Below are positions 4,693 to 54,451 of a DNA stretch of 64,000 nucleotides, one piece after another (the stretch's first letter is position 1; every line of letters starts with the position of its first letter). The translations under genes and the position numbers were made by a program. This DNA is from Ectocarpus siliculosus (Eukaryota; Sar; Phaeophyceae; Ectocarpales; Ectocarpaceae): NCBI GenBank assembly GCA_000310025.1, contig FN649726.1, positions 2,278,546 through 2,342,545 on the forward strand, read 5' to 3'. The notes beneath the pieces are model-generated. The model searched no databases. It saw only the letters and a list, made by a program, of their open reading frames with translations, and was not told the DNA's origin.

Positions 4693-7600
4693 TCACGTTT
4701 GATCCCTCGGCTCCACAAGCACTTCATTCACCGCCACGTGAGACGGGGCGGTCACAGCATACAAAACCGCTGCAGCGACGTCCTCGGGCTGCAGCACCTG
4801 GGTTTCGGTCGATCCGGTGCCTACCTTCACCCCTATGGCAACACCTTGTTCGTCTGCCGCCTCTTTGTCGGTGTTGTTCATTACCAAGTCCGTCGCACAG
4901 TCTCCCGGCTGAATCGTTGTGACCTTCAACCCGGTCCCCACAACCTCGCGCCGCAAACCTTCTGACATCGCCTCGACGAAGTACTTCGAGGCGCAGTAGA
5001 CAGCCAAGGATGGGAAAATCCGCCGGCCCGCATCCGAGGAAATATTGACAATATGTCCGCTGCCGCGCTCAATCATTCCCCCCAACACCGCCCCTATCCC
5101 AAACATGGTACCCTTGCAGTTGACATCCACCGTTCGCTCCCATTCATCCTCGTGCAGGTTCTTCATGTTGGTGAAGTACATCACACCTGCCATGTGGTTA
5201 AGGCGTTGGTGAAACGAACGAGCAGGTTGAACAATCGAAGGGAACAAGCAGAGAAGCACAGGACCCAAAGGCGTGCTATCACGATTGGGACTTTCGGAAA
5301 TGAAAGATAGAAAATAACAACAAATAGATTTAGAAATACCGAACGTTGGGAACTACCGGTACACTTTTGTGGAGATCATGGAGTTGAACCCGGAAAAAAA
5401 ACACTCGCCAGGGCGGCCAAGCCGGCAGCGCGACAGGAAAAAAAAAAGAATAGCTGCTGCATCAAAACAGCACACACAACTCGCCAGACATGGTGTGCTC
5501 TGCACTTTGCACCAGCACATAGTCGATGAGGAGAATGACATAGACCACATAGGTAGTTGAGGGGGCTGCACCAGTTCAACATGTGAGGGTGATCAAGGAG
5601 CCTGACGTCTCGTTCTTGCTGTATGCGAACGAGAGACAGGCCTTTTCCACGAGAGAGGAGAGAGAGAGCATCAGCAGCAGCCAACAAGAGAGGGCGCACA
5701 CACACACCGTCCGTATTATAGTAGAACTTATCACAGAGCGTACGAAGAAAGGCGCGCTGCTTGCCGTGTGTGCATTCGTGTCCAGACAGGATTCATCTTC
5801 CTCTTTCTCCGCCTGGTTTTTCTTCTCTCCCCCGTCAACCCAGCAGCAACAGGCAGATGATATGATGACCAAACACACGCTGACTTCCTTGCTTGGAATG
5901 CAGAGACAGCTCTACACCCCACTTCCGACACGCAGAGCAAATAACATATGTAGTTCTGGCCTTCGTTGGCCAGCGACGAAGTCTACAAACGGAACTTTCC
6001 GTGGTGCCTGGAGTTTGAATACGTCAGGCTACGCTCGTGTGTGTGGTGGTGGGCCTTTGCTTGTACCTCGTAAATCTATTTCTTCGCCTGAAAGCCGCAG
6101 GAGATTCAGGAAAAAGCGGCGCCAGTCCTCTGATTTCTAAATCTAAGGGCACCTTTCCAGATTTAGGGCTGTTCCACTTTGAGGACCGTTCGAAGAACCT
6201 GAGCCTTATCACTAAATCTGAAAGCTTCCAACTACATCGAAAAGTTCCGAAACGGGTTCCGAATTCATCTCATATCGGCTTACGAACAAAGCTCGCTAGG
6301 CAGAGCAGACTCTCTATGTAGCAAGGGGGATTTTACCGAGCTTTCCACACCGACTTATAGGCGGGGCACCATTGAGGACGTTCAGTGAAGAATCGGCCAC
6401 AAATATAAAAGAGGTCAACATCCCTTTGACGTCTCGATTCCTAGGAATACGACAAAGGCCATCTTCTGCGGGACATTCTTCAAAACACTCTGGATGCACG
6501 TGCGAAAAGCGTGCAAAGCGCGAGCGTTGTCTGCATCCTATGATAGAGCCTAGAAGCGAAGGATGTGGAGAGTCCACCACTGCAACGCGACCCGAATGTA
6601 CGAGGCAGGAACGTACCGTAGGAGGCGGAGAGATGGCACCTCCCCTAGAGCGATTTTCAAAGCTCGATTGCTCCACAACCAAGATTGTGCCGACACCGAA
6701 AATTGTGGTTTTGGAAACATGTCGCCGAGGGCTTTCCGTAGACGTACCGGGCTCTTTCCTCGCCCCCTTGGTCGTGGAGCAATCGAGCTTTGAAAATCGC
6801 TCAACGGGGGGTGCCATCTCTCCGCCTCCTACGGTAGCGCCACAAAAGCGCAGCCCCGCAATATGATGCCATGTATGACCATAGTATTGCCAAGTCAATT
6901 GCATGTACATGATGGCGGTCGCACGTTGTGTGAGCTGGCAGCTCAATGCTGACCCAATCCTTCTTCATCTCCCAGAACCCAGCCGTTCAAAGCATGCAGC
7001 AGCACTGCGTGCGAACATCAACACGTTTAGAGTTGTGCGTTTTCCTTTAGTAGGAGTCGTGGCAACCGACTTGCTCTGCCTATCAATGCCAGTCATCATT
7101 GCTGCACGCCTACGCTAGAGCGTCACTCCGGGAGTGCACACACATCAACTTCGATAAGCAGGGGCACATGTCCAAAAAAATCAGCCGCAACTCCGTGGAG
7201 AGATCACTATAATGCTTGATTGTCGCAACATTGACACGCCTAAACCTTAGCAGACACAAGTGCCTTGAGCAAAGCGTCTTGTAGCACTGCGACCCGAAGA
7301 ACGCTTACTGTCGACCTTGCCGTCCTTCCACATGTGTTTGTTGGCCTGGTTGACGTCAAGTACGTGTCTAGCACTGGGAGTGGGTCTGCGTGTTGTGCAA
7401 TCCAGCCACGAGTGAAGTCTCTCATATTGTATTGGTCCTCAGCAACAATTCTCAAACGCCAGTGATTCCCTGTTGTGCACGCTGGCTATCTTCGATTGGC
7501 TGTCGATGCCTCTGTCTCTATTGCGGTTGTGGATCATACCGTCACGTTCTCTGAACTATACATGAAGCTATATCTTTCGGTTTAGGTCGTATGTGCATGA

Positions 7601-10600
7601 AACTGTAGCTTGTTTTCGGCGGGTGGTGGCACAAAACCCGGTGTGAGAAATGGGTCGTAAAACCGGGAGGAAAGAGACTAAGCTAGGCAAGAAACCAGGC
7701 TGTTGTAAAACATCGAGCAACCCGGTGGGAGCAACAGAAGATCTAGAAATAAACGATTACGAACATGAGCAGGACCTGGCCTTACAAAGATTCCTCCGTT
7801 CCAAAAACAGTAAGAAAGCCATTTCGACCATTTTTTACGGCTCCTTTTTTGGGTGATCTTTGGAATCTCTTCTTTCGAGGTCTTTTTTTAGCAAAAAAGG
7901 ACCACCAAAAAGACAACCTTTTGGACACCCCATCCTGCCTTTTTCTTGGCAACTTTTGGGTCGATTGGGTGTGCCAAAAAACTGTTGTCCATTATTGGTC
8001 ACAACCCCTTGACTCTTACCTACAAATTCGAATCTCTCGACGGTTGATCTCCGCAAACTCTAACGGTGATCACACGAGTTGTGTCATGTGGCTGGTACAG
8101 AGTTGGTAGCATCAGCGGTAGCCGTTGTTTTTTTCATTCGGCTGGACCAGGTCGACAACCCGGTCTGTGCGGCAAACAAGCCGAGAGAGCCTGGACGCAG
8201 CAGCAGCGGGGGGTCATTGTTCGTGAGCTGTCAACTTTTGCGAACTCGACTTCAGGGCATCCTGTAGCCTCCGGGTCTGTATCAACCGGCACACAAGACG
8301 GACCATACACACCGTTCGTGGCGGATACCTTTGTCACCGCTGTTGCTTCAGTGGGTTGCGAGGGATCATCGATAACCCAAACTTCCAACACGGGCAAAAG
8401 AGCAAAAAAACTGGTTGCGGGCGCGGTGGGTTTTTTTCCAGCGTGCTGTTGACTCGCCACGTCAGTTTCCGTGCCTCCTATCGCCCTGTGGTCTCTATCA
8501 GCCGTCACACAAGACGGACCATACACACAGCTCGCAAGGGATAGCATTACAATTGCTGCTGCTTTACTCTGTGCGGAGATATCACCGAAAAACCAAGTCG
8601 GTGGGAAGGTACATGTATGTATGACGAACGGCCGTTGCAGAGTTACCTTTTTTTGGTCGATGACTTTGATGAGCAAAAAGGATCGACCAGCACGGAAGGA
8701 AGCGGGTCATCATGATTGTGTAAAGTATCATTTTTTGGGTCGTCCCTTTACTGGGAAAAATATCACCAATTAAGGGACAAAAAATAAGGCCTTACATGGT
8801 CATTTTTTGGAGATCTTTTTTGCCCCCACAGGGACGACCTAACAAGGGATCTACAAAAGAAATGACCCGTTTCTTTCTGTGCTGGTGGACCCTTTCTCAT
8901 CCGAATCGTCGACCAAAAAAAGAGACTCTCTGCAACGGCTGCTATTCGTCACACATACATACATGTACCACCAAATTAGTTTTTCGATGATATTTCCTCA
9001 CAGAGTGAAGGAGGAGCAACGGTAAAGCTATCCCTCGCGAGCTGTGTGTATGGTCCGTCATGTGTGGCGGCTGATAGAGGCCACAGGGCGATAGGAGGCA
9101 CGGAAACTGAGGTGGCGAGAGTCAACAGCACCCTGAAAAAAGCCCACCGCGCCTGCAACGAGTTGTTTTTTCTCTCTTTTGCCCGTGTCGCAACTTTGGT
9201 TTACCGGCACTCCCTCGTCACCCCCTCATAGCGACAGCGGATGACAAAGGTATGCGCCACGAGCTATGTGTATGGTCCGTCTTGTGTGGTGGCTGATACA
9301 GACCAGGAGGCTATAGGGCGCTCAGAAATTGTGAGCGTGAGAGTGGTGGACAAGCGGGAAAAATGACCCACCGCGTCTTCAAGCAACTTTGTTTGCTCTT
9401 TGCCCGTGTCGCAACTTTGGTTTACCGGTAATCCCTCGCAACCCACTCAAGCAACAGCGGTGACAAAAGTATGTGCCACGAGCTGTGCGTATGGTTCGTC
9501 TTGTGTGGTGGTTGATACAGACCAGGAGGCTATAGGACGCCCTGAAGTTGGGTTCGCAAAGTTGACAGCAGTACACGAAAAATGACCCACCGCTGCTGCT
9601 GTGTCCGGGCTCTCTCGGCTCGTTTTGCTGCTTGTTTGTTGCACAGATCGGGTCGTCCACCTGGTCCAGCCAAATGAAAAAACAACGGCTACCGCCGGTG
9701 CTACCGACTCCGTACCAGCCACATGATACAACCCGTGTGACCACCGTTAGAGTTTGCGGGGATCAACCGTCGAGAGATTCAAGTTTGTAGGCGAGTCATG
9801 TGACTGTGACAAAAAAAGACAACAAATTTGACAGCCCAATCCTGTCCAAATCTTGCTGAAAAAAAGACAGGATGGCGTGTCCACAACGGGTTGTCTTGTT
9901 ATGTCTTTTTTTTTGCTAAATAAGACACGCAAGAAGGGGTTCCATGGCCAATTATCTTTTGTTGGGATGAAAGAAAGAAAAAGACAGCCAAAAAAAGGAA
10001 CCGTAATAGATGGCCTTACCCGGATTGACGTTTCTTATCTGTGGGCTCGTCTGTAAGTGCACATAGAGAAACGCCTGTTGTTGCCGAGCATTGGCCAACT
10101 CTCCGTGACCTGCCGACGCGCCACAGCATGCTCAGATTTTGTCTTTCAGCACGCCGATCATGACCGCGTTGACGATGATTAGCACCGGCACGTGGACTAC
10201 ATAGATAGGTCGTGCACAGTTGGGGCGGGTGATGAAACGTGTTATACCGGACGAGGCGCAGTTCCTTGTTTCCGCGCCACCGTCGAGCATCGTGGTATTA
10301 TCTATTTACGAAGGATGCAGTGCAAGATCCAGCGCGGAGGTGTGTCTCTTACTCAATCAAAATCTCTTGTTTTTTTTTCTCATCCGAGCTCCAACTACGA
10401 CGGATGTATCTACAGTTTTCTCGGGTGTCGCCATCCAGAAAATACAACCCCGGCGAACTACAGCAGTAGACTATGCATAGAGCGCAGTTAAGTTCTTGGT
10501 TACCTTTTCGCACTCTCTAGTAGCTGCAACTGACCAGGATCCAACGTGGTGTAAACATCTTCGTGTTTGTGCTTCGTACTGCGGTACCTTGTAATAGTCG

Positions 10601-11115
10601 TGTCTAAAAGTGGGTATTTGTACATCAGTACCACATGACAGCAGTCTGGTACAAGTACGCATCAAAATATCACACCACGTCCGTTTTCACCAGAACATCG
10701 GTGACTGTGCGCCACTTCACACTGCTGTACCCGCAGTTCAAGATTAGACCATGCACCTGTGAGAGCCAGGCCACTTAGACGACATTACACGATAAAGGGG
10801 GTCTTGCTCTCAGGTCCCGCGAATATCGTGGTCCTCACCTGCGTTGTTTACCATGACGTCTACTGGGCCAAAGCCAGCTTCAGCTGCAGCAACTAGTGCC
10901 TTGACCTCGTCTCGCTTGGTGACGTCTACCTTGCACACCATCACTCTATCGCCGCCAACCTCCGCTTCTATCTTGGTCTTGACTTTCTCTAGCTCCTCAA
11001 TCCTGCGCGCACCGAGCACTACGTTGGCACCGGCAGAGGCAAGTGTGCTCGCGATGGCCGCTCCGATCCCCCCTGAAGACCCGGTGACAACGACGACCTT
11101 TCCTGACAGCGGCAT
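4693..11115 (-). CDS. Classical short-chain dehydrogenase/reductase split by a 5.65 kb intron
   Basis: NAD(P)-dependent oxidoreductase, probably cytosolic because no targeting peptide is seen; substrate unknown. Exons 11115-10839 and 5186-4693 join in phase to give 256 residues, the usual SDR length. Exon 1 carries the Rossmann motif TGSS-GGIG (~11-18), the Asp of the DVT motif, and ends VNNAG, cut in the Gly codon. Exon 2 restores that Gly and continues VMYFTN, the normal continuation of NNAG. It then carries the catalytic Ser in NISSDAG, YCASK (catalytic Tyr and Lys) and the PGD loop. Donor GTGAGG and acceptor CAG are canonical. The intron (5187-10838) holds a MITE and a foldback-like element. 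Two truncated genes are possible, but exact phase and motif continuity argue for one gene. The ATG at 11115 sits just before the Rossmann strand. Confidence 0.85.
6614..6836. mobile_element. MITE with ~65 bp terminal inverted repeats and TA target duplication, copy 1
   Basis: A 223 bp element starts TA-CCGTAGGAGGCGGAGAG and ends with its inverse, CTCTCCGCCTCCTACGG-TA. The inverted repeats extend inward about 65 bp with few mismatches, to CGATTGCTCCAC. There is no reading frame worth noting. The TA at both ends fits the target duplication of Tc1/mariner-type elements (family knowledge). A diverged relative in opposite orientation lies at 44402-44630. It sits in the dehydrogenase intron. Confidence 0.85.
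7826..10010. mobile_element. Large foldback-like element: ~1 kb imperfect inverted arms built of ~220 bp subrepeats
   Basis: The outer parts of the two arms match in reverse: the stretch after CTCGACGGTTGATC (~8037) reappears inverted at ~9743-9779, and the T-rich GTCTTTTTTTAGCAAA (~7880) reappears inverted at ~9907-9925. Each arm contains repeats of ~216-222 bp marked by ACACAAGACGGACCATAC: two in the left arm (8291, 8507) and three inverted in the right arm (near 9051, 9273, 9492). The dyad centre of the inner part is near 8785. No coding capacity was recognised. Long inverted arms made of tandem subrepeats are the hallmark of foldback transposons (family knowledge). The boundaries are approximate and I could not define a target-site duplication. 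Confidence 0.75.
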
Positions 11116-11732
11116 CTTGGTGGCAACGGCAATGATCCCGTTCAAAATCAGGATTTGCTGGCTGCTGGGCAGTGTTGTTGTAGGCGTGTGAATAACTTGG
11201 TTGTGTTTTAAGTCCGTGGGCCAAAGAGAGAGCGAGAGAGGGAAGGAGTAGGGACCCAGGAATGCATTGCGCAGATGAGCAGAAGCGCCAAGGAGAGGGA
11301 CTGTCATATGGGCATCCCGTGTCCAATCAAAACACAGCGGAGGAGGCAAGTCATCCCACGAATTCCTGCTGCTGTGCTGGTGCATGTCAAAAGCATCTCC
11401 CACCGTACAACTATGGGCAGGGTAGTTCCTCTCGCCACAGACTGGTCCCGAGGCAAGCAAGGGGTATATCGAGGTTACTTCTATCTATGCATATGTGTGT
11501 CTATAGGGTGGGTTATGCAATTGGGTTGTACGGCAGTGAGTGTGTGAAAAAGATCACGACAGGGAGGACCAATAGGAACGGTTCACGGATGTTATTGGAT
11601 ACATGGATATCAGACCGGTCAAACGCAGCACACACGCGTGCGCGGAATGCTACTCCCCTGCCTGTTTGCTCAAGAGGAGAACGGACAGTGTAGCAAGGAG
11701 TAAGATCCACGAATCTGTTGTGACACTGAAAT
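11116..11732. promoter_or_regulatory. Divergent promoter region, dehydrogenase (-) and P450 reductase A (+)
   Basis: These 617 bp separate the start codons of two divergent genes and must contain both promoters. I see no clear TATA element or repeat. That the two genes are co-expressed is only inference. Confidence 0.5.
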
Positions 11733-13715
11733 ATGGAAGACACGGAGGAGGACCATCGTTGGGCTTATTATACCCGAGTTTGCGTTGCTGTGTCTGCTCT
11801 GGCGGCCGTACAGCAGTGCCTCGCATGGAACAGGCGCATTTCCGCAACCAAAACCAAGGAGCGCCGGCGCAACTCTATCATCGACCTCAGCAAATGGCCT
11901 GGAGGAGCTCTGACGGTATACTTCGGCTCTCAGACGGGAACAGCAGAATGCTTCGCCCAGATCGTCGCTGCCGAAGGTATTGTTCACGGGTTCAAGACAA
12001 CTGTGGTCGACCTCGAAGACTTCAACGAAGAGCAATTCGAGGGTGCCCACAAGGCTATCTTCATCATGGCCACGTATGGTGACGGGGACCCAACTGATAA
12101 TGCCAGCGAGTTCTACAATTTGGTGGCAAACAAAGCAGGTGGTATGTCTAGTGAACGTCTCAGATCGCTGCACTACACCGTCTTCGGTCTCGGGAACACG
12201 CAGTACGAGCACTACAACATGGCGGGTCGGACCATGTACGAAAACCTCCATAAGCTTGGTGCCCAGCGCATGTTCGAGTACGGGGAGGGTGATGACGACC
12301 ATGAGCTCGAAGAAGACTTCGAAGAATGGAAGGAGGCGATGTGGGGGGTCCTCGTTAAACGGTTCGGCGGCATGGGCGGCGTAGATGGAGTAGACAAAGC
12401 TGTGGACCTACCGTTCTCCGTCAAGATGCTTACCGAACATGAAGCAGCTGCCATTGCCTCGACAGAGGAGTCCAAGGCCGCTTGCTCAACAAGGTTTCAT
12501 TGGCACGCGGTTGATGCCTGTGTCAGCATCAATCGCGAGCTCCGAGCTCAGGCTCCCGGGGTGGGATCTACGCGGCACGTCGAGATCGACCTCCAAGGCA
12601 CCAGTGTAGGCTACCACACGGCGGACAACCTTGCCATCTTGCCCTTGAACGACGCCACCACGGCGGAAAAACTGTGCGCACAGCTTGGCTACGATCCAGA
12701 CTCCTTCTTCATCCTCGAGCATGACGACAACCACAAGCCGGTGTTTCCCACACCTTGCACCGTGCGAGACGCGTTCCTGCGATTCATGGACATTATGGCC
12801 ATTCCTCGCCGCAGCTTGCTGGAGCAGCTGACGCCTTACGTAGAGGACGACGCTGAACGCGAGGCCATGCACCTCCTGAGCTCGAAGGAGGGCAAGGAGA
12901 AGTACCACCGCGAGGTGGAGGAGCCTGGGTGGACGCTGGCCGACCTCATCCTGGAGAGGTTCTCTAGCCTCAGCATGACGTTGGATCACTTTTTGCACGT
13001 CGTTCCCCACCTCCACCCCCGCTACTACACGATCTCGTCGTCGTCGTCCGTGTCGCCGTCAAGGGTGCACATCACTGTGGCGGTGCTGGAGCAAGACCGG
13101 AGCCAGGGTCGCCTGTATCGCGGTATCTGCTCGAGTTTCCTCAGCAGCCTGGAACCTCACGATGGAGCTACGGTGGAGGGAGCCACCATAGACGGCAGTG
13201 GGTCGAAGTGCCGCGTGTTCGTGCGAGAATCGACGTTCCGGCTGCCGGCGGACTCGTCTATCCCGATCATAATGATTGGGCCGGGGACAGGGGTCGCCCC
13301 GATGCGCGCGCTGCTCCAGGAGAGGGCCTGGCAGAAGGAGCAGGGGTTGAGTGTGGGGCGGAACGTGTTGTACTTCGGGTGCAGGTGCAGAGACCAAGAC
13401 TACATCTACAGGGACGAGCTGGAGGCATACCAGGCAGACGGGACACTTGACAGCCTTCGCTTGGCGTTCAGCCGTGAGGGGTCGTCTAAGGTGTACGTGC
13501 AGCACCTTCTCCGCGAGGATGCTGCTGAGATGTGGGGCTTGCTTGAAGGCGGTGCGTACGTGTATGTGTGTGGGGGTACTAAAATGGGTACGGATGTACA
13601 CAGCGAGTTCAACCACATAGCTCAAAGTTGCGGGTTGATGGGGGTGGAGGAGTCGAAGGAGTATATGAAGGGCTTGCACGACGCTGGTCGATTCGTACAG
13701 GAGTTGTGGTCGTGA
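11733..13715 (+). CDS. CPR: NADPH-cytochrome P450 reductase, copy A
   Basis: Diflavin reductase passing electrons from NADPH via FAD and FMN to ER cytochromes P450. 660 residues, intronless. N-terminal hydrophobic anchor at ~12-32 (short, interrupted). FMN domain with YFGSQTGTAE (~64), MATYGDGDPTDN and GLGNTQYEHYN. FAD domain with RYYTISSSSS and GICSSFL. NADPH domain with MIGPGTGVAPMRALLQER and YFGCRCRDQDY. The C-terminus FVQELWS carries the Trp that stacks on FAD in this family. From 12534 to the stop the sequence is the inverse of copy B, and the predicted proteins are identical over ~393 residues. The N-terminal ~266 residues differ at many positions. Being intronless among intron-rich neighbours suggests an ancestral retrocopy. 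Whether it is expressed cannot be told. Confidence 0.95.
   Translation: MEDTEEDHRWAYYTRVCVAVSALAAVQQCLAWNRRISATKTKERRRNSIIDLSKWPGGALTVYFGSQTGTAECFAQIVAAEGIVHGFKTTVVDLEDFNEEQFEGAHKAIFIMATYGDGDPTDNASEFYNLVANKAGGMSSERLRSLHYTVFGLGNTQYEHYNMAGRTMYENLHKLGAQRMFEYGEGDDDHELEEDFEEWKEAMWGVLVKRFGGMGGVDGVDKAVDLPFSVKMLTEHEAAAIASTEESKAACSTRFHWHAVDACVSINRELRAQAPGVGSTRHVEIDLQGTSVGYHTADNLAILPLNDATTAEKLCAQLGYDPDSFFILEHDDNHKPVFPTPCTVRDAFLRFMDIMAIPRRSLLEQLTPYVEDDAEREAMHLLSSKEGKEKYHREVEEPGWTLADLILERFSSLSMTLDHFLHVVPHLHPRYYTISSSSSVSPSRVHITVAVLEQDRSQGRLYRGICSSFLSSLEPHDGATVEGATIDGSGSKCRVFVRESTFRLPADSSIPIIMIGPGTGVAPMRALLQERAWQKEQGLSVGRNVLYFGCRCRDQDYIYRDELEAYQADGTLDSLRLAFSREGSSKVYVQHLLREDAAEMWGLLEGGAYVYVCGGTKMGTDVHSEFNHIAQSCGLMGVEESKEYMKGLHDAGRFVQELWS
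12369..12430 (+). repeat. Isolated 62 bp identity island with copy B (mate 17001-17062)
   Basis: Within the otherwise diverged N-terminal halves, 62 nt beginning GGCATGGGCGGCG are identical to 17001-17062 read in reverse. Flanking bases differ on both sides. The next 103 nt towards the 3' end are diverged but of equal length, and the long identity starts after them. This looks like a conversion patch or strong local constraint. Confidence 0.8.
12534..13713 (+). repeat. Left arm of 1180 bp inverted repeat (P450 reductase 3' halves)
   Basis: This arm pairs with 15718-16897 in strict register (the two coordinates sum to 29431). Translations agree in the coding frame and in two or more other frames, so nucleotide identity must be close to 100 percent. 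Similarity stops within a few bases of the stop codons (TGA in copy A, TAA in copy B), and the 3' flanks are unrelated. Confidence 0.9.
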
Positions 13716-15715
13716 GTGAGTTTGTCCCCGACAGAGGTAGGGAGTTTTTAAGCTTGTTTTTGGGTGTACTCTCCGTGCGTATTACTGAACTGCGTGTGCA
13801 TACACCGAAAAGTTGCACGACGTAATCGCCGTATGATTATCAAAGTTTTCTGTGAAATGGACATATTGTTGCCGTGGTAGTGTCCACGGTGGACGTGGGA
13901 GCCGCTTGATTCTCTGTTGAAGCAACGTACTCTGGTATTGACGGGGCGACACTAATAATAATCCCATCCCGCCCTCCTGTGTGTATCGAAGCTTCTTAAC
14001 GGCTTATCGACTGTTTCGTTGTCATTTTCGTCGCGTGTCTGAATTCGGCGCCAAACGTGTGTTTCGATGTTCGTGACGTATCGAGTGCCCCAACTCACCC
14101 CCGTAGTCCTACAGTAGTCGTGGGGTAGCAACGCGAGTCTTTAGGTTGGGATGGTTGGTGGGAACCTTGTTCAATAAATGCATGCAGTGGTGCAATATGC
14201 AAGTCAGGTGAACACTGACTGTTTTTCAGTATTTTCTCACAGTCGTGATGGTGTGGGTTTTGGGTCTCGTGCACCTCTTTCCGTCCATAGAATGCGTGTG
14301 CGGAGAGCGACTAGTACTCGTCTCCGATTCTTCCAGGGTTCGACACAGGCAGCCGCAACATCAGACGACTTCGCAGCGGGTATTCGCATTTTTCCACAGC
14401 CGCTGCTGCCGTATCTGTAGTGACCTATGCTTTCGCAGGTGGTTGCAGGAAAGCAGGAAATTGAAAGCGGTTGCACCCGGGTGAGAGGGAGACGTGAGCA
14501 TTGTAGTAAACGTGGAAAATATTCATTTATGGGTGTGACTTGTTTCTGGTGCTCCTTCGGGAAAGCCTCTTTTTTTGAAAAGTTTTCGCCTACTTGTTTT
14601 ACGAAAAGACAGTCCATCATCGGTGGCTCGACAAGGTTTGGTGCAGAATATACAAAGTCTCACTTGGTCGTCGATACTCATGCTTGGTGCACGAGCTCAT
14701 GAGCTACACGCCGCTTTTTTCAACCCTTTTCACCTAATAGCGGAAAAGATTGTGCTGAACCTGGTGCTGCCGTTGGTGGTTGTATTTGCACATGTTGTGT
14801 CACCACACCACTTCACTCGGGCCACCTAGAATGTATCCTCTTGCCACCTGCTTGCTGAATCATGTGTGGATGGTCTCACAGACGGCTCCGGCCGCGTGCT
14901 TTTTCTTGTAGCGATCGTTTGGCGGCGAGAGGCTTGCAGCCAAGCTCGGATGACGCTGAAACAACCGACATTTTCTCTTGATTTCCAGACCTCAAGGTTT
15001 GATTTTTTTGTTGCTCGCACCAAGTTGGCCCTATGCCCTCGCCCGAACCTCGGGAGCCACTGAGTGTGCTGGTGTGCTTGCGTGCTTGTGGGAAAGTCAC
15101 AGGTGCTGCGTGAGCCGGCAGGGCTTACATTGGGGGGGGACAGAGAAGTATATGAAGTTACAAAAACCCGCTACAACGGGTTTACGAGCCCTCTCACTGA
15201 TATTTTCTCTGATCATGAGAATATACTTCAATAGAGATGTTGAGGCGGCCGCACCACTGATCTTTTCAAGGTCTACAAGGACAACTTGCCCTACCGGCCG
15301 CACCGCGACCACCCATGAACCCTTCCATGACTGTCTGTGCCCACCACCCTGTCGCGGGCTGCCCTCATGGCCTATAGGTGAGTAGCTGTTGCATCTACAG
15401 AAGTACACTTGTCTCTTTTTGCTGCACTCTCTCTGCCGCACTCTCTCACGCTTCGAAAAAAGCTAGGCCCAAAGGAAATATCACAAGGAAAACTGATGAG
15501 AAACAGCACCGGGGGAGTTGGTGCACAACATTCCCTAGGCCCGATTAATCTCAAATGACTTCACCACTGATTGGGACCGGTTTCGATCGTACGCACCGTC
15601 TGGCCTCCCTACTAAAGCCAATGAAAAAAGGTTGTTGAAGTATGCCGTTCGAGTGGGGAATCGACCTGTGTACCAAGCTCTCGTCAGTATGATAGCAATC
15701 CCGTCTCGTCAAAAC
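13716..15715. other. Spacer between the two reductase genes
   Basis: These 2.0 kb separate the convergent stop codons. I see no convincing exon, RNA gene or repeat. It would form the loop of a hairpin if the flanking arms paired. Confidence 0.6.
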
Positions 15716-17659
15716 TTACGACCACAACTCCTGTACGAATCGACCAGCGTCGTGCAAGCCCTTCATATACTCCTTCGACTCCTCCACCCCCATCAACCCG
15801 CAACTTTGAGCTATGTGGTTGAACTCGCTGTGTACATCCGTACCCATTTTAGTACCCCCACACACATACACGTACGCACCGCCTTCAAGCAAGCCCCACA
15901 TCTCAGCAGCATCCTCGCGGAGAAGGTGCTGCACGTACACCTTAGACGACCCCTCACGGCTGAACGCCAAGCGAAGGCTGTCAAGTGTCCCGTCTGCCTG
16001 GTATGCCTCCAGCTCGTCCCTGTAGATGTAGTCTTGGTCTCTGCACCTGCACCCGAAGTACAACACGTTCCGCCCCACACTCAACCCCTGCTCCTTCTGC
16101 CAGGCCCTCTCCTGGAGCAGCGCGCGCATCGGGGCGACCCCTGTCCCCGGCCCAATCATTATGATCGGGATAGACGAGTCCGCCGGCAGCCGGAACGTCG
16201 ATTCTCGCACGAACACGCGGCACTTCGACCCACTGCCGTCTATGGTGGCTCCCTCCACCGTAGCTCCATCGTGAGGTTCCAGGCTGCTGAGGAAACTCGA
16301 GCAGATACCGCGATACAGGCGACCCTGGCTCCGGTCTTGCTCCAGCACCGCCACAGTGATGTGCACCCTTGACGGCGACACGGACGACGACGACGAGATC
16401 GTGTAGTAGCGGGGGTGGAGGTGGGGAACGACGTGCAAAAAGTGATCCAACGTCATGCTGAGGCTAGAGAACCTCTCCAGGATGAGGTCGGCCAGCGTCC
16501 ACCCAGGCTCCTCCACCTCGCGGTGGTACTTCTCCTTGCCCTCCTTCGAGCTCAGGAGGTGCATGGCCTCGCGTTCAGCGTCGTCCTCTACGTAAGGCGT
16601 CAGCTGCTCCAGCAAGCTGCGGCGAGGAATGGCCATAATGTCCATGAATCGCAGGAACGCGTCTCGCACGGTGCAAGGTGTGGGAAACACCGGCTTGTGG
16701 TTGTCGTCATGCTCGAGGATGAAGAAGGAGTCTGGATCGTAGCCAAGCTGTGCGCACAGTTTTTCCGCCGTGGTGGCGTCGTTCAAGGGCAAGATGGCAA
16801 GGTTGTCCGCCGTGTGGTAGCCTACACTGGTGCCTTGGAGGTCGATCTCGACGTGCCGCGTAGATCCCACCCCGGGAGCCTGAGCTCGGAGCTCGCGGTT
16901 GACAACGACGGGTGCGTCGCATCCATGCCAGTAAAACTTGGACGAGGAAGCGGCGGCAGTTTCACTAACCCCAGCATGACACGCCGCTTCAGCTGCCGTC
17001 AGCATCTTGACGGAGAACGGTAGGTCCACAGCTTTGTCTACTCCATCTACGCCGCCCATGCCACCAAATCTCATCACCAACGCCATCCACATCTTCTCTC
17101 TCCACGCTTCGAAGTCTTCTTCGAGCTGATTGTCGTCATCACCCTCCCCGTACTCGAACATGCGCTGTGCCCCAAGCTTCTCCATTCCCTCGTTTGTGCT
17201 CTTGCCCACCATGTTGTAGTGCTCGTACTGCGTATTGCCCAGACCAAAGACCGTGAACTCGACAGTAGCAAGATAATCGCTCTCCAGTTCACCACTCTCG
17301 TTTTTCAACCACGTGGTGAACTCGCTGGCGTTGTCGGTGGGTTCGCCGTCGCCGTATGTGGCCATCAGAAAGATAGCCTTGCCCTTCTCCAAGAGTTCCG
17401 AAGCACTAAATTCCTCCAAGTCAACCACGTCAATGTGGAAGCCATGCCGCCGGCCCTCCGCAGCGATTGTCTGCGCGAAACTTTCGGCCGTTCCTGTCTG
17501 CGAGCCAAAGTAGACATTGATGGTATCGTTAGGTGCAGCCTCCTCTTCTTCCTCGATGTCCGCTTCGTCAGGTTTTCGCTTCGGTCGAAGAAAAAGCAAG
17601 CCGGGCACCAGAGCCAAGAGGCCAATATACGGCCACGCACTAGCCCCGCTTGACGCCAT
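15716..17659 (-). CDS. CPR: NADPH-cytochrome P450 reductase, copy B
   Basis: Paralogue of the gene at 11733, same reaction and ER-membrane location. 647 residues, intronless. The N-terminus has a clean single membrane anchor, WPYIGLLALVPGLLFL (~9-24), followed by a basic then acidic linker, more typical of the family than copy A. FMN motifs YFGSQTGTAE, MATYGDGEPTDN and GLGNTQYEHYN; the FAD/NADPH half is identical to copy A and ends FVQELWS. The start is the first ATG upstream of the anchor. Because its anchor is more canonical it may be the ancestral copy (inference). The opposite-strand open frames over this gene, up to 246 residues, are shadows. Confidence 0.95.
   Translation of the reverse strand: MASSGASAWPYIGLLALVPGLLFLRPKRKPDEADIEEEEEAAPNDTINVYFGSQTGTAESFAQTIAAEGRRHGFHIDVVDLEEFSASELLEKGKAIFLMATYGDGEPTDNASEFTTWLKNESGELESDYLATVEFTVFGLGNTQYEHYNMVGKSTNEGMEKLGAQRMFEYGEGDDDNQLEEDFEAWREKMWMALVMRFGGMGGVDGVDKAVDLPFSVKMLTAAEAACHAGVSETAAASSSKFYWHGCDAPVVVNRELRAQAPGVGSTRHVEIDLQGTSVGYHTADNLAILPLNDATTAEKLCAQLGYDPDSFFILEHDDNHKPVFPTPCTVRDAFLRFMDIMAIPRRSLLEQLTPYVEDDAEREAMHLLSSKEGKEKYHREVEEPGWTLADLILERFSSLSMTLDHFLHVVPHLHPRYYTISSSSSVSPSRVHITVAVLEQDRSQGRLYRGICSSFLSSLEPHDGATVEGATIDGSGSKCRVFVRESTFRLPADSSIPIIMIGPGTGVAPMRALLQERAWQKEQGLSVGRNVLYFGCRCRDQDYIYRDELEAYQADGTLDSLRLAFSREGSSKVYVQHLLREDAAEMWGLLEGGAYVYVCGGTKMGTDVHSEFNHIAQSCGLMGVEESKEYMKGLHDAGRFVQELWS
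15718..16897 (-). repeat. Right arm of 1180 bp inverted repeat (P450 reductase 3' halves)
   Basis: Mate of 12534-13713. It ends at the copy B stop codon on one side and within the codon before Arg-Glu-Leu-Arg on the other. Confidence 0.9.
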
Positions 17660-18059: not shown

Positions 18060-21000
18060 ATGTCGACCCTCGAAAAACACATGCTGAAAGAGCTGTTGCT
18101 CGTCTGCAGCGCGCTCGGAAGTTCAGAGGCGTCGGAGCACGGCGGTGGCGATGGGGAACCAGCCGTTCAACATCAGCGGTTTGTACGCGGAGAGAACTGT
18201 TTAGAGTGGCTGCAGGATCTCCAGAGGTGCGTAGATCCACATCGATTTCCACGTTTTATGTGTTGTGGCCGTGTGCCTCCGGCATGTAGTAGACTACAGC
18301 AGCACAGCAGATACAACGCCCTATTGGGTCGAGGAGGTGCAATATATGAGCCGACACACAGCCGACGCTGCGCGTTGGGCAACATGGGGGCGTTGTCAGT
18401 TCTCACAGCATGGTGACTCTCGACCAATTGTTTCCGAATATTGACCCAACCTCCGCGCCTGCTCTAATAAACCAGGGCGCTGCGGAGAGATGATGAGAAC
18501 ACAAGAGAGATCTGCATCACCCTCTCGTCGTGGCGCGTGGTGCAACACAAGCTAGTTCCTCTTATCCTGGAGTGTAGGGACGACGCCGTGCTTGTCAATA
18601 CCCTCTTCAAGATCTACGTCATGCTCACAATGCCGCTGTCCAAGCAGTCCGAAGAGGCTCTGTCAAAGCCTATCAACCCCAAGGCGCAGGGTGATGTTCG
18701 GGACCAGCAGATGCGCCGGAGAGAGAACGCCATGTCCCAGCAGGTGGGCGAGCTTTACATTGAAGTTTAGGACCAGCTGTAGACACTCAGGTGATAATGA
18801 TTATCCTAGCCCGTTGCCGTTGCTCGCTAAATTTATACTCCATCTTTGTCTTTCTTTCTTCTGATCGGCTGTGAAGATTGTGTTGTGCCGTTCGCGAAGG
18901 CAATGGCAGCCGTTTTGCACAACTGCTGGACTCACAACGCAAGACTGCAAGGCTATGGTCCAGACTTGGTTCGGCATGATACAGCCCGTTTCACCTCATG
19001 ATTCGCTTGCGCCATCTTTTACTCATTTGGCAACGAGCCACCAGATGCAAACTGCAGCAAGTTTTTTTTGTGAGGAAACTTGATCGTGTTTGCCTTCAAC
19101 ACAGGTTCAATCGATCTTGCGAGGAGACTGCACACCAAGGTCTCAGGGCGCAGGCGGTTCAGACTTGACTGGTTTTGCACTCTTTGCTGGAGACGAGCGG
19201 TCGTGTTGTGTACGCCTGGCATCGACTTTGTACATTCCATGCGAAGTCTATCCGAGTGATAAACAGCGGTGTTGCGCTGCGTCGTGCGACGTGAGCAGTG
19301 CACTCGAGCTTTCTCGTTCCGGCTGGAATGCGCCAAGTTCAGTTTACTGGCTCCCAGACTTCGTTTTGAGCCCAAGACGACAACATCCGTTTCAATACAT
19401 GTGGGGTTCCTCCGTTGACGTTCGCCTACTCACGCATGCATGAACCTCTTGCGCCTTGGTGATCCTGAACAGGCCGCTCTGCACGCGTTCAAGCGTGCTT
19501 TCATCTCGAAGGACGTCCTTTCGGTCGTCGTGGGAATGCTCGAGGAACCGCTCAGCCACACTGGAGTGGCTCGTACGGACGCGGACAACTTTTCCATCGA
19601 GTTGTGCCTGACGCTGCTGAGAAACGTCCTCAACATACAAGACCCGACTCCCGGTATGGCCACGTCGCTGGGTGACCACTACACCCAGATGCACGAGCAG
19701 CTCGTGGCTCTTTTCAAGGACGCTCTGCTTTTAGACATCCTGCTGCTCTTGGCACAGGACGTGCACGCGAGAGAGAACGCCAAGCTCAACCTCCTCCTCG
19801 TCGAGATTTTCCACTTCATCATCCGGGACCAGGAGCCCGGAGCAATTATCGCAGTTCACCGATTGCAGGCGCAGAGAGGGGCTTCGAAGGGATCCGCTGG
19901 TTTGCCTTCGCCAGCTCGACAGAGCGGGGGCTCGCTCATGAGCGTTCTGGCGAAAGAGAAGACTAAGCGGGGGCTTGGGGCTGGGCAGATGCACAGGTGA
20001 TGTTTTGTTTTCAGGCTCGGAAGTGCCGTTGAAGCGGTATTGCTAATCCCATGGGCTCACGTGCACATACCGATTGTCTGCATTTTTTATTCACCCTACG
20101 CTCACTCCGCGGGAGGTGCTGAACGAGTGTGAAGCGTAACGTGCCGTACGTGTTCGTGCTCGCCGCAAAGCCAGACTGCAGCAACGGCAAGACAGTATTT
20201 GACTGATACCACGCGATTGACCACCCCGCCCTTCCTTCGTTTTGGGTATTTTCGCGCACAGCCGCCACGCTAGGTTTGGGGGGACGCTGCAAGTCGGAGG
20301 AGGTAATGGGGCAAACGCAAAGATGGTAGCCAATCCCTTCAAGGATCGCGTGGATTGTGTACCTCAGGCAACCCGCAAGAAGAAGAAAAGTGCCAAGACA
20401 TTTACGGTCGACGACGTTTCAGGACACTCTTCTGGTCTGTCGGACAGGTGACGCGACGACGGTGCTAACTTGACGCTACTGTAGTACGGTTGAGTCCATT
20501 TGTACGCCTGGGCACTCCATGTGTTGGTCCAATATAAGTGTGGTCCGACCGAAATGTTTGTTGTTGTTGTTATCGTCCTATTTATTATGGCGACAGCCCC
20601 ACCATGTTTCGTGATGAGACGTGTACTACACGTTTCAGTGTTTGTAGAGTACTACACTTTTCAGTGTATTTTTTCGTACAACCACAACCATCCAGGGTCA
20701 CACAGGAGGGGGTAAACACCAGGGCTTTTTTCTTCTTTTTATTTATATTTTCGTGCCCCACTTTCCTCCTGCGGTGCGTGCTGAATTTTATTTTTATCGC
20801 GAGAAGGGTCCAACCATCCCTTTCCCTCGTCAACGGTGCTAACGTCGAAGTTTGGTACTCACGAGAGCTTTTTCAGCTATATTTCGCTTTCACCCGCAAA
20901 TTTTGTTAATTTTTCACCCCATGGGGATTCGACCTCACGACCCTTGCGACTAGCGGTTTTCGTGGATACCACTAGAACACCGAAATGTGCACTACTTTTT

Positions 21001-35895: not shown

Positions 35896-38800
35896 ATGAC
35901 CAGCACAGGACCCCCTTCGCCCGCCACCAGAGTTCCGCCGGAGCGCAATGTACCAGCTCGTGTTTCGATGGAGGGCTCAAGGCGAAATATTGCCGATGAC
36001 AGGGGCGAAGGTAGCTGCAGATTGGAAGAGACATCGAGTTAGACGTGTGCGAGGGTTACAGCGAAACCTTGTGTGTGCTCTTGTTCCTGCGCTGAATCTC
36101 CCTCGGCAGCGTAGTGGCACGGGTGCTTCCTATCTCTGGTTGAATACATGCCTGTCGACGTCATTCCTGATTTCCTCTCTGGCGGTATGCCGGCTTTTTT
36201 TCAGGAGCACGCTCCGGTGATGGTGATGCCACGAACGGGGCGAGCAGAAACCGAGGCCTGCGGCAAGACCACCCTGAACGCGGCGCGGCATCCGAGGACG
36301 ACGACAACGAAGACTCTAAGGCAGACTCCGACGGCATCCGTCGAGGCCCGCTCTCTTCAGCAAGCGATAGGCCGAAAGGTCATGCGACATCCGACAGAAA
36401 GGTGACGAGACGTTGAGAAAGGCAACTTGGCAGCAGCAACTCGGTTTGATTTGTCGGCCCCGGTGGTTACGCAGAGTAGAGCGGGTCCTTGTAGTACACC
36501 TTCTAAAGATTGCAGCCAAATCTATCTCGGGGAGTGAATCGTTGCAATTGGCAGGTGGAAAGCGATCATTTCGTGAGTCAACAACATATGAGGGAAGAGA
36601 CTGCTGAGTTCTTCCTTGCCAACCCCATCTAGCACTGCTGTGTAGGCTGTGTAGTCTTAATCCAAGATAAAAAATGGCCAGCGGAAAAGTCCCTACTTGA
36701 ACATGCACATAATTTTTCCAGTACTTATAGACACCATGGAGGAGCGGCACGCGCGTTGGCACGCTCACATATGTTGCTGCGGCCGTGCTGTAGAAAGCTC
36801 TGCAGCTGCAGTCCGAAAAGTCTGAAAAATCTGGGTCCATACTAATATGGGCGATTGGGTGGGTCTGTGACAGCACGTACGCGTACAGCAGTATGGACCC
36901 AGATTTGCGGGCGTTTCGGACCGTGATTGCAGAGCTTCCGACAGCACGGCCCCAGCAACACAATTGGGCATGCCAACGCGCATGTCGCTGCTCCATGATA
37001 TCCTCTATGCATACGAGTGAACATGTCCAGGTCGGGACTCCGCAATGCGATGAGCTTTCTTTCACCACCGGCCGTGTCGCCTGTGTTGTCTTGAGTGTAG
37101 ACTTGTGCAATATGTTGTCTTGGTCTGAGAAGGTGTGGAGGTATTGCAGTGGTTCGTGGTACTGCTGTATGATGTTGCAGACAGGCACCAACCGCTGCTC
37201 TGTGTGACAACACCGGATTTTTTGTTTGTTGCGCCACACTTCCCGACTGGTCTTCCGTGTCTCGTGTGAACATCGATTGGCAAACCCTAGTACTAATCTT
37301 TAAGGCAAGCACCGCAGGGGAAGGTGGGACGAACAGGAATAATCCCAGTGTTACCTTGCTCCTGTGTGACCCGGACTGATAAGTATGCGTCAAATATGTT
37401 CATACCGAAAGGTACGAACTGGCGCCAGAACCAATGGGACGAAAACATACAACTCGCACACAGCAGCAGTAGCGCGTACGTGGACTCGTTCGTGCATCAC
37501 TTGTACTACGATCTTGCCCCCCCCGACCTCAAGAGCTCCTATCCTGGTTCACTCAGAAAACTTACCTGGGGTGCGCTTTGAGTTCGTCCCATCCCCCACG
37601 TGCATTCATGGAACACCTACACATCCGTATGATGTGGTTACGGAATGCGGAAAGAGGATCGCTGTTATGTAGGTACTGGCAGCGTACGTGTTGCGAGTTG
37701 TGCGGCTATGTCCACGACAACCTGCCATAGGCATGAAGGGGCCATCTTTCTTACTGCCTGACCCCTAACAGTTAACCCTTGTGCTCATGCAACTTTTATC
37801 GCCTCTTTCCGCAATGCCTAATTTACAGGACGAGTTCCCTCTGATTTCTGTGCCTCTGGACACATGGGTTGGGCGGTTCGTGCGCATCACCACCCCGAGA
37901 CACAACGGCACAACAGGCCTCGTCCACAGGACAGGCAACGGCTGGGTGAATCTGCAGACCGCGCTTGGGGACGTTGCCAAGCGCGCGTACGATCTGGTTG
38001 TCATTCCTGAGGAGAGGGCCAACATTGGCAGCATCGGTGGTATGCTGAAGGCGGACGCAGCTCGCGGCAAAAGATACAGAGGAGGCCCAAAGGGTGAGTG
38101 CACCCTGCTTGTCGCTGCGTTTGATAATCGCCCGTCCTGCTGGAGCCGCAAAGAGAACTGGGTTGTTCAATATTGATATGCAGACGTCTTATGCGCAGGT
38201 GGGGCGGCCGTAGGCAGCAACTCTGGATCTGGAGACGAAAGGAAGGGTGGTGGTCCGTCTCGTAATCGCAGCTCGCGCACCACGGCGCGCACTGCTCACT
38301 CCAGTTCAGATTCCAGCGGCCAGGTAAAGTAGCCGTTAAATCTGTGTTGCGTTTTATGATCCACGACGTACTGTGTTGCGAAGCCTGGAAGCAACTGCGT
38401 GCGCGGCCACGTTTTCTTTTCTTAAAGCTGTGTCTGTTGCAGCATTGTAGAACATGGATGATACCCTTGATAGGCGAGTTCACGTTGGTGCACTTCCAAA
38501 TGCCACTCGACCACATGAAGCTTTTAAGACGACGCCAACAGGCAACCCGAGTTGCTTTGGTTCACATCGTGTGCCAAAATATGCCAACCTTCGCCAGCTA
38601 GGATTGCAGATCGGTGTTGTGGCCTGTCCGTGATATTCTTGACCCTGTGATTTTTTTCATGACATCATTTTTTTGTTTTGTGCATGGATGTGTTTCTGCT
38701 TTCCAGGAGGACGATGACGGGGACGAACATGGCAACGGCCGCTCCACTCGCCGCAGACGAAGGGCTCCCATGGATGACGATAGCGATTTTGAGGACGCTG

Positions 38801-42508: not shown

Positions 42509-45419
42509 TTACGGCTTAGTCTGGACTGTTACAGGTCCCGAAACCATCGTGCAACAAGAAAGCCTATAAGAAGCCGGACGCTTGTTCTTGTCGAGAAGTT
42601 TCTTCTCGCCGGGTCCCTTCGGACTGCAATTTTGCGCGCCAGCTTTCACGTTTACGGCGCACGTGCCACACGAGCCACCACCTCCACAGTTGTAGATCTT
42701 CCCCTGCAATGGTCATGTTGCAAGCGGTAGAGCCAACGTTAGTACAACCTTCCAAGAGGAAACGCGCGTCCGTCCACACGTACGTTTCGGCAGCAAAAAA
42801 AGCCACCGGAACAGATTTAACTTGGCGTCCACCCAGCAGCTGTCTCCATTTAACTCGGCACCTACTTGGCGTCTTGTCTATAATCGAGTAAATTTGGAAT
42901 TACGCCGCTTTCTTCTGGGCACCGCAGTAGAACCAATCAGCTCACAGACCAATACACATCATGAGCCGGGAGACTGGGAGCTGCAACTTGCGCATACCAC
43001 ACGCCCACAGCAGGATAGAAGCAGCAGAGACACTCCGGTTTCCGTGTGTACGAAGTTTCGTAACGTTAACCCACACTTAATGGCAATCATGAGCACGCAG
43101 TAGCACCACCGAGACGACACGGAGAGCTTAGAAAACGCGAGGAAATAGATCACACACGCATTTTCATGTCGAGCTACAGCGGTAGTACCCACACCCTGGG
43201 ATGCGTGTATTTAGTTTCTACATCGTCTGCACGCCCGCCCTCTCGCCAGATCACTTGAAGTAACTTGATGATGATGATGCCCTGGCATCTTTGCATCTAT
43301 TGATTGGTATCTGCTTTCTTCGTCTTCGCTCTCTTGACTCTACATTGTATATTTTTTTTTTTGAATGAACGCCCCAAAGCAACCGTCATCATATGTAATC
43401 TCGTTGGCATGTTGAGCAACCCGCACGGCAGCAGATCTGCACGGTGATTTCTTTCTTTGCTGCCTCAGTGACGACACCTCTGCTCTGGTTTCTCCTTTCC
43501 TTCATGTATTCGAGGCGCAACATTGTGCAAGTGTGTGGCCCACAGATAAATGGGTTTCACACGTGTATTTGCGGGCTTCGACCGCGTAAACAAACTCGAA
43601 AACCTCGGTCCCGGTACCTTAAAAAATTGGCCCACGTTTCAGGCAATCAAAATATCCGGACAGTGGTCATTTTTGATGTGCTATGCGGCCAGCACCACTG
43701 GGTTCTCGCCTCCCTCCGAAACAACCATACCATACTTCTCGGATGTGCGGGTGGGCCCCACAAAGCAGGGGTCGTACAACACACCTCGTGAGTGCTACGT
43801 ATCTAGAATTTTCAAAACATGAGGTTTTGGTCTAGAGCGCCACAGTACAGCAGTCGATGGAGAGTTACGAACTCTCTACTCTTGCGACGAGCAAGTTGTC
43901 CTCACGTACAGCAACGACAATGGAAGTAGGAGCACGTGTAGGACCACGTGGACAGCAGTAGGACAGGTCTGGTGGAACCAAAGAGAGAGGTAGCAAGGAA
44001 GTGAGCTGCGAGGGGTGAGGCCGGACAGCCATCGGCCATCAAGATCATGAACGGAAGTTCCTCCTCACTGATGACAGAGAAGGCATAGATGCGTCGAGTC
44101 GGAGGGATTTCCGATGGCGCTGGACGTTACAGACATAGAAGGAGGTTTGTTGGTTCAGGAGACACAAGTCCCACATCACCCCCGCAGCTTATTAGTGGTG
44201 ATAGAGCTCGCACTCCACCAAAACTACCTACCAAATATGTGAACTTTGGGCCAACAGAAATACAAACATGTTGACATAACACAGAAAAAATTAAATTGTA
44301 CCATTTAATTTAAGTGGACAACTTTCTTATCCTAACTTTTCACAAAGTTATGTGGACGAAGGACACGACAATGACATGGCATTTACTTTTACGTACAAAT
44401 GTACCGTAAGAGTCGGAGAGATGGCGCCCCCGTGTTAGCGTTTTTTTGTAGCGTACAGTATTTCTCCAAAACTAGGAGGGTGCGAACACCAACTGATACC
44501 TCTCAGGAAAGCCCTCGACGAGATATTTCCAAAACTACCCTTTTCGGCAGTGGTACCCCCCTGGTTGTGGAGCAATACGCTTCAACAAAAACGCTAACAC
44601 GGGGGTGCCATCTCTCCGACTCTTACGGTAATAAAGGTGCACCACAAGCACGGGACATTTACTCTCCAGCGTAAATGTGACGATGTACCTCAGGTTCGCG
44701 GGCTTGCAGAGAATCAAAGATTCAGACGGACACCATGCTGATCGTGGATGGTGGAAATCAATGCTCGAGTGCGCGAGTGTCTGGGATCGTTCCATATTTT
44801 CAGGCAGTCTATGTAAGCCCCTCTCGGAAGTACGGTAGAAGTACATGTTTTGTTTGCGTGGGGGCAGTGTAGCACATCGCACCAACAACTTGGGTCCCTT
44901 TCCATGCACCAGAGATCGACGCAAGGCAACAGCAGAGTGCAAACTATTTCAGGGCCATGTTGTTTTAGTCTAATGTACCTATGTACGTATTTGGTATGAC
45001 GTCGTATTTAGGACAACGAAACATGATCAGAAACGAACACGTACTGACTGACACGTACGCATGGGTGTTTGCAGGATTTACGCGAAAAGCACCTACTTTT
45101 TGTGCTCTATTTCAAGGACCTTCCTTTCGCTAACCTGCAGCGGGTAGATGTCAATTTTGTTGTCCATCAAAGCCTTCCTCAGGTTCGTCTTGCCCGCCAG
45201 CGTGAGCTCCGTTTCCTTGAACCCTGTCTTCTGTTGCACCTTCACCACGATCCCTCCAGCAGCCTTTTTCTTGGCACCTCCGCCGCCGAAGAGCATCTGC
45301 ATACCAGAGTGTGACTGCCGTCGCACATTGAGCGATGACGATGGAGCCACTACGAAACCATTTGATATCTGCAGCACAGCTGCAAGAACGATGAGCGCCA
45401 CGAACAAAAAGGACTTCAT
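42509..45419 (-). CDS. Plastid-targeted 2Fe-2S ferredoxin-like protein
   Basis: Electron carrier or structural iron-sulfur protein of the plastid. Exons 45419-45135 (95 codons) and 42703-42509 join in phase 0 to 159 residues, across a 2431 nt intron containing a MITE. Residues 1-21 form a signal peptide ending SNG, followed by FVVAP, the Phe-at-plus-one pattern of secondary plastids. The mature part has VKVQQKTG, NLRKALM, then YNCGGGGSCGTCAV: a C-x5-C-x2-C ligand set plus a last Cys in RLSCCTMV, which is the plant-type ferredoxin arrangement with one extra residue in the first gap. The tail GPVTVQTKP and overall spacing resemble the ferredoxin-like subunit associated with the thylakoid NDH complex in plants (family knowledge). 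Whether an NDH-like complex exists here is unknown. The divergent neighbour is plastid ATP synthase gamma. Confidence 0.88.
44402..44630. mobile_element. MITE with TA target duplication, copy 2 (relative of 6614-6836)
   Basis: Starts TA-CCGTAAGAGTCGGAGAG and ends with the inverse. The terminal repeats run about 45 bp, to the T-rich GTTAGCGTTTTT. The central part aligns with the reverse strand of the 6614 element: GGAAAGCCCTCG, TTTCCAAAAC, TTTTCGG and TGGTTGTGGAGCAAT occur in the same order. It has no coding capacity and lies in the intron of the 2Fe-2S gene. Confidence 0.85.
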
Positions 45420-53944: not shown

Positions 53945-54451
53945 NNNNNNNNNNNNNNNNNNNNNNNNNNNNNNNNNNNNNNNNNNNNNNNNNNNNNNNN
54001 NNNNNNNNNNNNNNNNNNNNNNNNNNNNNNNNNNNNNNNNNNNNNNNNNNNNNNNNNNNNNNNNNNNNNNNNNNNNNNNNNNNNNNNNNNNNNNNNNNNN
54101 NNNNNNNNNNNNNNNNNNNNNNNNNNNNNNNNNNNNNNNNNNNNNNNNNNNNNNNNNNNNNNNNNNNNNNNNNNNNNNNNNNNNNNNNNNNNNNNNNNNN
54201 NNNNNNNNNNNNNNNNNNNNNNNNNNNNNNNNNNNNNNNNNNNNNNNNNNNNNNNNNNNNNNNNNNNNNNNNNNNNNNNNNNNNNNNNNNNNNNNNNNNN
54301 NNNNNNNNNNNNNNNNNNNNNNNNNNNNNNNNNNNNNNNNNNNNNNNNNNNNNNNNNNNNNNNNNNNNNNNNNNNNNNNNNNNNNNNNNNNNNNNNNNNN
54401 NNNNNNNNNNNNNNNNNNNNNNNNNNNNNNNNNNNNNNNNNNNNNNNNNNN
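53945..54451. other. Assembly gap of 507 N flanked by poly-C
   Basis: The gap is bordered by C14 on the left and C21 on the right, so it probably hides a long poly-C/poly-G or G-quadruplex-forming tract that stopped sequencing. Any open frame crossing it (runs of unknown residues flanked by Pro or Gly) is an artefact. Confidence 0.95.

Follow-up and report, generated by a model that had tools for sequence, protein, structure and literature searches.

How can two adjacent genes be indistinguishable over one half of their length and long diverged over the other? The question is raised by a convergent gene pair of the brown alga Ectocarpus siliculosus, which lies in the 64,000-nucleotide stretch of contig FN649726.1 that was analyzed here (henceforth, the window).

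The reductase pair and its neighborhood

The pair consists of two tail-to-tail frames for full-length NADPH-cytochrome P450 reductases (CPRs), namely copy A (11733-13715, plus strand; 660 amino acids, stop codon TGA) and copy B (15716-17659, minus strand; 647 amino acids, stop codon TAA). Both display Flavodoxin_1, FAD_binding_1 and NAD_binding_1 domains above the Pfam cut-offs, in the order FMN, FAD, NADP typical of CPRs and within a single unbroken frame each; hence, both coding regions are intronless, and the preliminary description of this DNA was right in recognizing two intronless reductases that converge. Its picture of a loop of about 2 kb between arms of about 1.2 kb also holds: the left arm, which is the FAD/NADPH half of copy A (12534-13713, plus strand; codons 268-660 and the first base of the stop codon), and the right arm, which is that of copy B (15718-16897, minus strand), are each 1180 bp long and are separated by a spacer of 2004 bp (13714-15717). 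The remainders of copy A (11733-12533, plus strand) and copy B (16898-17659, minus strand) comprise the N-terminus, FMN domain, hinge and linker, and match the FMN domains of CPRs in the PDB. Copy B aligns with the solved CPR 5urh over residues 45-647 (E = 7.3e-130). The best 19-residue hydropathy values near the N-terminus (1.29 in A and 1.72 in B) make a membrane anchor plausible for B and offer a weak case for one in A.

On the side of copy A, its start is adjoined by an exon of a short-chain dehydrogenase (SDR; 10813-11118, minus strand). This and the stretch 4696-5352 on the same strand match complementary pieces of one profile and are probably parts of a single gene with an intron of about 5.5 kb that would house two foldback elements. 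Such elements, with a 74-80% match to their own reverse complement, occur at 6614-6836, 8261-9317, 36735-36997 and 44402-44630, with the first and last of these being related to each other (70%). Beyond the start of copy B lies a gene with one exon (19440-19997) matching TIMELESS. Farther along, the window contains a run of N (53945-54451; 507 bp) bordered by poly-C and a tandem duplication of about 320 bp (56520-57169; 87% identity).

An identical FAD/NADPH half with sharp borders

The preliminary description had called for the alignment of 12534-13713 with the reverse complement of 15718-16897, expecting a near-perfect repeat with FAD/NADPH halves identical in protein and DNA. The result is stronger than that: 1180 of 1180 bases match, and the repeat, at precisely these coordinates, is perfect. 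Across codons 269-660 all 190 fourfold sites are identical, which places an upper bound of 1.6% on silent divergence (rule of three). Given the identity prevailing in the FMN part, 1180 successive matches have a probability of log10 P ~ -197, and chance is excluded as their source.

The borders are equally distinct. At the 3' end the identity breaks off, as had been noted, with the stop codons, for the tract includes their first base and then meets TGA in A and TAA in B. At the 5' end it likewise begins sharply, directly after the Asn codon (AAT/AAC) of the motif N-R-E-L-R, the first codon of the tract being that for Arg; alignment with solved CPRs identifies this motif as the start of the FAD half.

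CPRs in general conserve their FAD/NADPH module well, and one might attribute the identity to purifying selection or codon bias alone. This is refuted by the silent sites: whereas all fourfold sites in the tract agree (190 of 190), the same genes agree at 33 of 64 such sites across codons 55-268 and at 13 of 35 across codons 55-178. Thus, protein constraint is not the cause, and the probability that we would still grant it is negligible.

Divergence of the FMN halves and the flanks

In codons 55-268 the two copies share 68% of their DNA (213 aligned codons, including one that belongs to the tract), with dN of 0.28 and dS of 1.33 by the NG86 method and dS of 1.73 by YN00; for codons 55-178 the NG86 dS is 1.9, i.e. 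near saturation. The dN/dS ratio of about 0.2 over the FMN part suggests that purifying selection acts on the FMN halves of both copies, so that both genes, going by their sequences, are probably working reductases. The linker immediately upstream of the main tract (12431-12533, plus strand) is diverged and agrees with 17000-16898 at 53 of 103 bases. Outside the conserved core we recovered no homology between A and B exceeding that of 300 shuffles, be it in the 300 bp beside each stop codon (3' UTRs), in the 5' flanks (300 and 700 bp) or in the N-termini. The claim of diverged FMN halves and flanks is therefore borne out in its main part (68% identity in the former and the absence of detectable homology in the latter), with the amendment that the FMN half is patchy and bears identical runs at its rear. 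A uniform divergence profile, which had been named as evidence against conversion, is not what the pair presents: silent divergence is zero across the FAD/NADPH half but saturated across the FMN half.

These flanks also bear on whether the assembly can be trusted here. Perfect repeats of 1180 bp are typical places for errors, in that repeat collapse, gap filling or short-read polishing might have written one consensus over FAD halves that truly differ, and runs of N, which might represent gaps or withheld DNA, do exist in this assembly (the 507 bp run in the window and one of 214 bp on contig C167). However, there is no such run within or near the CPR pair, and the repeat ends show neither gaps nor the foldback-like identical flanks of a collapsed repeat. 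A foldback chimera, in particular, is rejected by the unrelated flanks and the different stop codons. Moreover, repeat collapse requires copies that were nearly identical beforehand, so that recent homogenization would still be needed and collapse would inflate only its exactness. We therefore consider an artefact very unlikely.

A recent inverted duplication of the whole gene, followed by rapid divergence of the FMN halves or replacement of one by that of another gene, would likewise leave the 3' halves identical and the 5' halves different. Yet the saturated silent sites of the FMN part and its dN/dS of about 0.2 are unlike fast adaptive change, and the duplicated unit would need a boundary falling precisely on the stop codon. 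Nor did searches of the 189 Mb genome, in which all match counts are lower bounds, furnish among the matches found any gene besides A and B whose FMN half is CPR-like. The 1180 bp DNA query gave at least two matches, namely the two arms; the copy A protein gave at least four (A, B and weak ones on contigs C29 and C18); and the Flavodoxin_1 profile gave at least four (A, B and two pieces on C29). Among these matches there is accordingly no third CPR gene as a donor of the tract. As a donor of an FMN half, too, we rejected what the protein and Flavodoxin_1 matches had to offer, the C29 locus being only a distant match. All in all, we consider a recent duplication very improbable. One scan each of viral and prokaryotic contigs for relatives returned 13 and 43 pattern-matching stretches, respectively, of which none was confirmed.

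The diflavin-like loci on C29 and C18 match in separate pieces, like split genes, leaving the CPR pair as the only intronless one among these loci. This could be read in favor of a cDNA-mediated event, in which a 3'-biased reverse-transcribed mRNA of one copy recombined with the other, and the homogenized half is indeed the 3' half. As both halves of the CPR genes are intronless, though, introns do not discriminate, and DNA-templated conversion accounts for the same facts; we thus give little credence to this variant, which overlaps with the conversion model favored below.

Partner docking and relative rates

The preliminary description further proposed that conversion would hold the reductase half uniform as the partner-docking half diversifies. 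Taking 5urh to be rat CPR, and its residues 113, 115, 142, 144, 147, 207-209 and 213-215 to be those that dock P450 or cytochrome c, we find all 11 positions to be acidic in A and B alike. The solved CPR has 31 acidic positions, of which A has an acidic residue at 18 and B at 22, with 18 common to the two copies; position 93, acidic in rat, is acidic in neither. With these docking positions acidic in both copies, and a dN/dS of only about 0.2 over the FMN part, the proposal of diversified docking is left without support.

The copies nevertheless seem to differ in tempo: relative to 5urh, the FMN domain shows 14 one-sided changes in A and 3 in B (two-sided binomial test, p=0.013), by which A seems to be the faster copy, and the FMN part of A scores lower than that of B against the animal CPR 1j9z (119.4 versus 142.5 bits). 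Contrary to this, for 2bpo, 2bf4 and 3fjo it is A that has the higher score.

Short identical patches toward the back of the FMN part

The FMN part contains four identical runs, of 62, 36, 25 and 21 bp, with the next longest being of 12 bp, and all four sit in its rear, beside the main tract. In copy A (plus strand) these are the hinge patch of 62 bp (12369-12430, pairing with 17062-17001 of copy B), the 36 bp patch encoding QRMFEYGEGDDD (12264-12299, with 17167-17132), the 25 bp patch in the TQYEHYNM stretch (12198-12222, with 17233-17209) and the 21 bp patch in the ELEEDFE stretch (12304-12324, with 17127-17107). When codon patterns were shuffled separately for identical and for differing amino acids, such that amino-acid identity stayed fixed, the first three run lengths were reached in 0, 0 and 2 of 2000 permutations; in simpler shuffles the top-ranked run lengths were reached in 0 of 10,000 of each. 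The mosaic of tracts hence exceeds chance even under the constrained permutations, as expected of interlocus gene conversion, and suggests that these runs are further conversion tracts. Three of the four overlap protein stretches that are also conserved in a solved CPR, and so part of their identity may reflect protein constraint. The 62 bp patch covers the hinge, a region in which two alignments with CPRs are dissimilar; this patch is probably a separate conversion tract and constitutes the best evidence for one. The paired positions sum to 29431 throughout, in the four patches as in the main tract, i.e. they fall in one register with no net length change.

Probable gene conversion between old inverted paralogs

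Sharply bounded near-identity at silent sites, set inside old and diverged paralogs, is the pattern expected of gene conversion, and we hold with considerable confidence that interlocus conversion between old inverted CPR paralogs is by far the best explanation. An ancient duplication would have given rise to the two intronless genes in their tail-to-tail arrangement, and homology-directed conversion would have copied the FAD/NADPH half of one arm into the other, the latest time so recently that no base difference is left. Conversion would be bounded by the FAD start on one side and the stop codon on the other for want of usable homology beyond them: the two 3' UTRs are not related, and upstream, islands excepted, linker and FMN half have drifted too far; under this conversion model the short islands of the FMN half would have been converted as well. 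The outcome would be one common electron-input module joined to two differing FMN output modules.

Without earlier conversion the FAD halves would have been diverging since the same time as the FMN halves and would scarcely present matches long enough for conversion today, which makes it likely, we infer, that conversion between the arms recurred. A single event with patchy mismatch repair could also yield discontinuous tracts, though, leaving recurrence unproven. Thus, of the original suggestion of recent or recurrent conversion, the conversion itself stands on the contrast between zero and saturated silent divergence, the single register, the patches and the absence of a third CPR among the matches found, and its recurrence stands as likely. 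A stronger version, in which conversion is actively maintained as a lasting feature of the lineage, with the inverted layout preserving a shared NADPH/FAD input while the FMN outputs specialize by partner, appears unlikely to us. GC-biased conversion was rejected as well: GC3 is 0.78 in the converted half as against 0.64 and 0.65 in the FMN parts, but ranges from 0.73 to 0.83 in three other coding stretches of the window.

Other inverted paralogs in the same genome

The genome holds at least 18 P450 matches, counted by exon, on seven contigs, and we examined two convergent P450 pairs. One of them, on C167 (57000-71000), looks like the CPR case at the sequence level: it has a block of 343 columns with 93% identity (241 of 250 columns in the presumed exon and 79 of 93 in a presumed intron piece, with the splice border placed by judgement), and its four other inverted blocks are 74-86% identical. 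In the other, on C17, all five blocks are diverged (66-83%) and none has a converted appearance. We count this against the conversion model; it indicates that conversion is not automatic between convergent paralogs.

A third comparison comes from the LHC genes, with at least 87 matches in the 189 Mb genome, in keeping with a photosynthetic alga. An array on C16 (240335-282213) contains ten 3'-exon matches in strictly alternating orientation, and seven of its genes, at 240-268 kb, were compared. Six of them form 15 pairs with exon identities of 97.3-99.2%, agreement at 38-43 of 42-43 fourfold sites and flanks that, within 400 columns, are 67-95% identical; the six pairs that involve the seventh gene (g1) reach only 81-82% in the exon. 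Inverted pairs are no more similar than pairs in the same orientation, and some of the likeness of the exons might be owed to codon selection. These comparisons suggest, without proving it, that inverted tandem families of this genome commonly undergo exon homogenization. Separately, 18 LHC matches on C92, C232 and C488 have one identical score, with two more on C11 and C18, which suggests recent amplification.

Parallels and implications

Conversion between paralogs is known from other systems, and the CPR pair adds a clean case to it; among the titles listed from open-licence PMC papers, none concerned CPR gene conversion or brown-algal CPRs. The Drosophila genes Amy-p and Amy-d, to which Hsp70 has been likened, are similarly linked paralogs in palindromic orientation (PMC3924832). 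As far as that account goes, conversion is described for their coding sequence with no half singled out, whereas in the CPR pair the FAD/NADPH half alone is homogenized and the FMN half is saturated. Closer in its restriction to one module of a multidomain protein is the case of mammalian MxA and MxB outside rodents, where conversion is described as largely confined to the BSE-GTPase region, with its authors weighing tolerated against selected conversion (PMC4687636). These, however, are immune GTPases, for which recurrence is shown by phylogenies. In Caenorhabditis, adjacent inverted paralogs include the hsp16 modules and an hsp70 pair, and a study cited in the same review suggested that conversion is likelier between copies of the same orientation (PMC3966223); in the sections of the review considered here domain-limited tracts go unmentioned, in contrast to the tract of the CPR pair. 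Among stramenopiles, duplicated blocks homogenized by gene conversion have been suggested for the Blastocystis genome, and these do not concern CPRs (PMC3129679).

The CPR pair thus presents an unusually clean instance of module-limited concerted evolution, in which, within one gene pair, saturated silent divergence gives way to none where one domain meets the next. Accordingly, trees built from whole CPR sequences of this lineage could mislead. The pair also hints that inverted tandem genes of this genome may often be subject to conversion.
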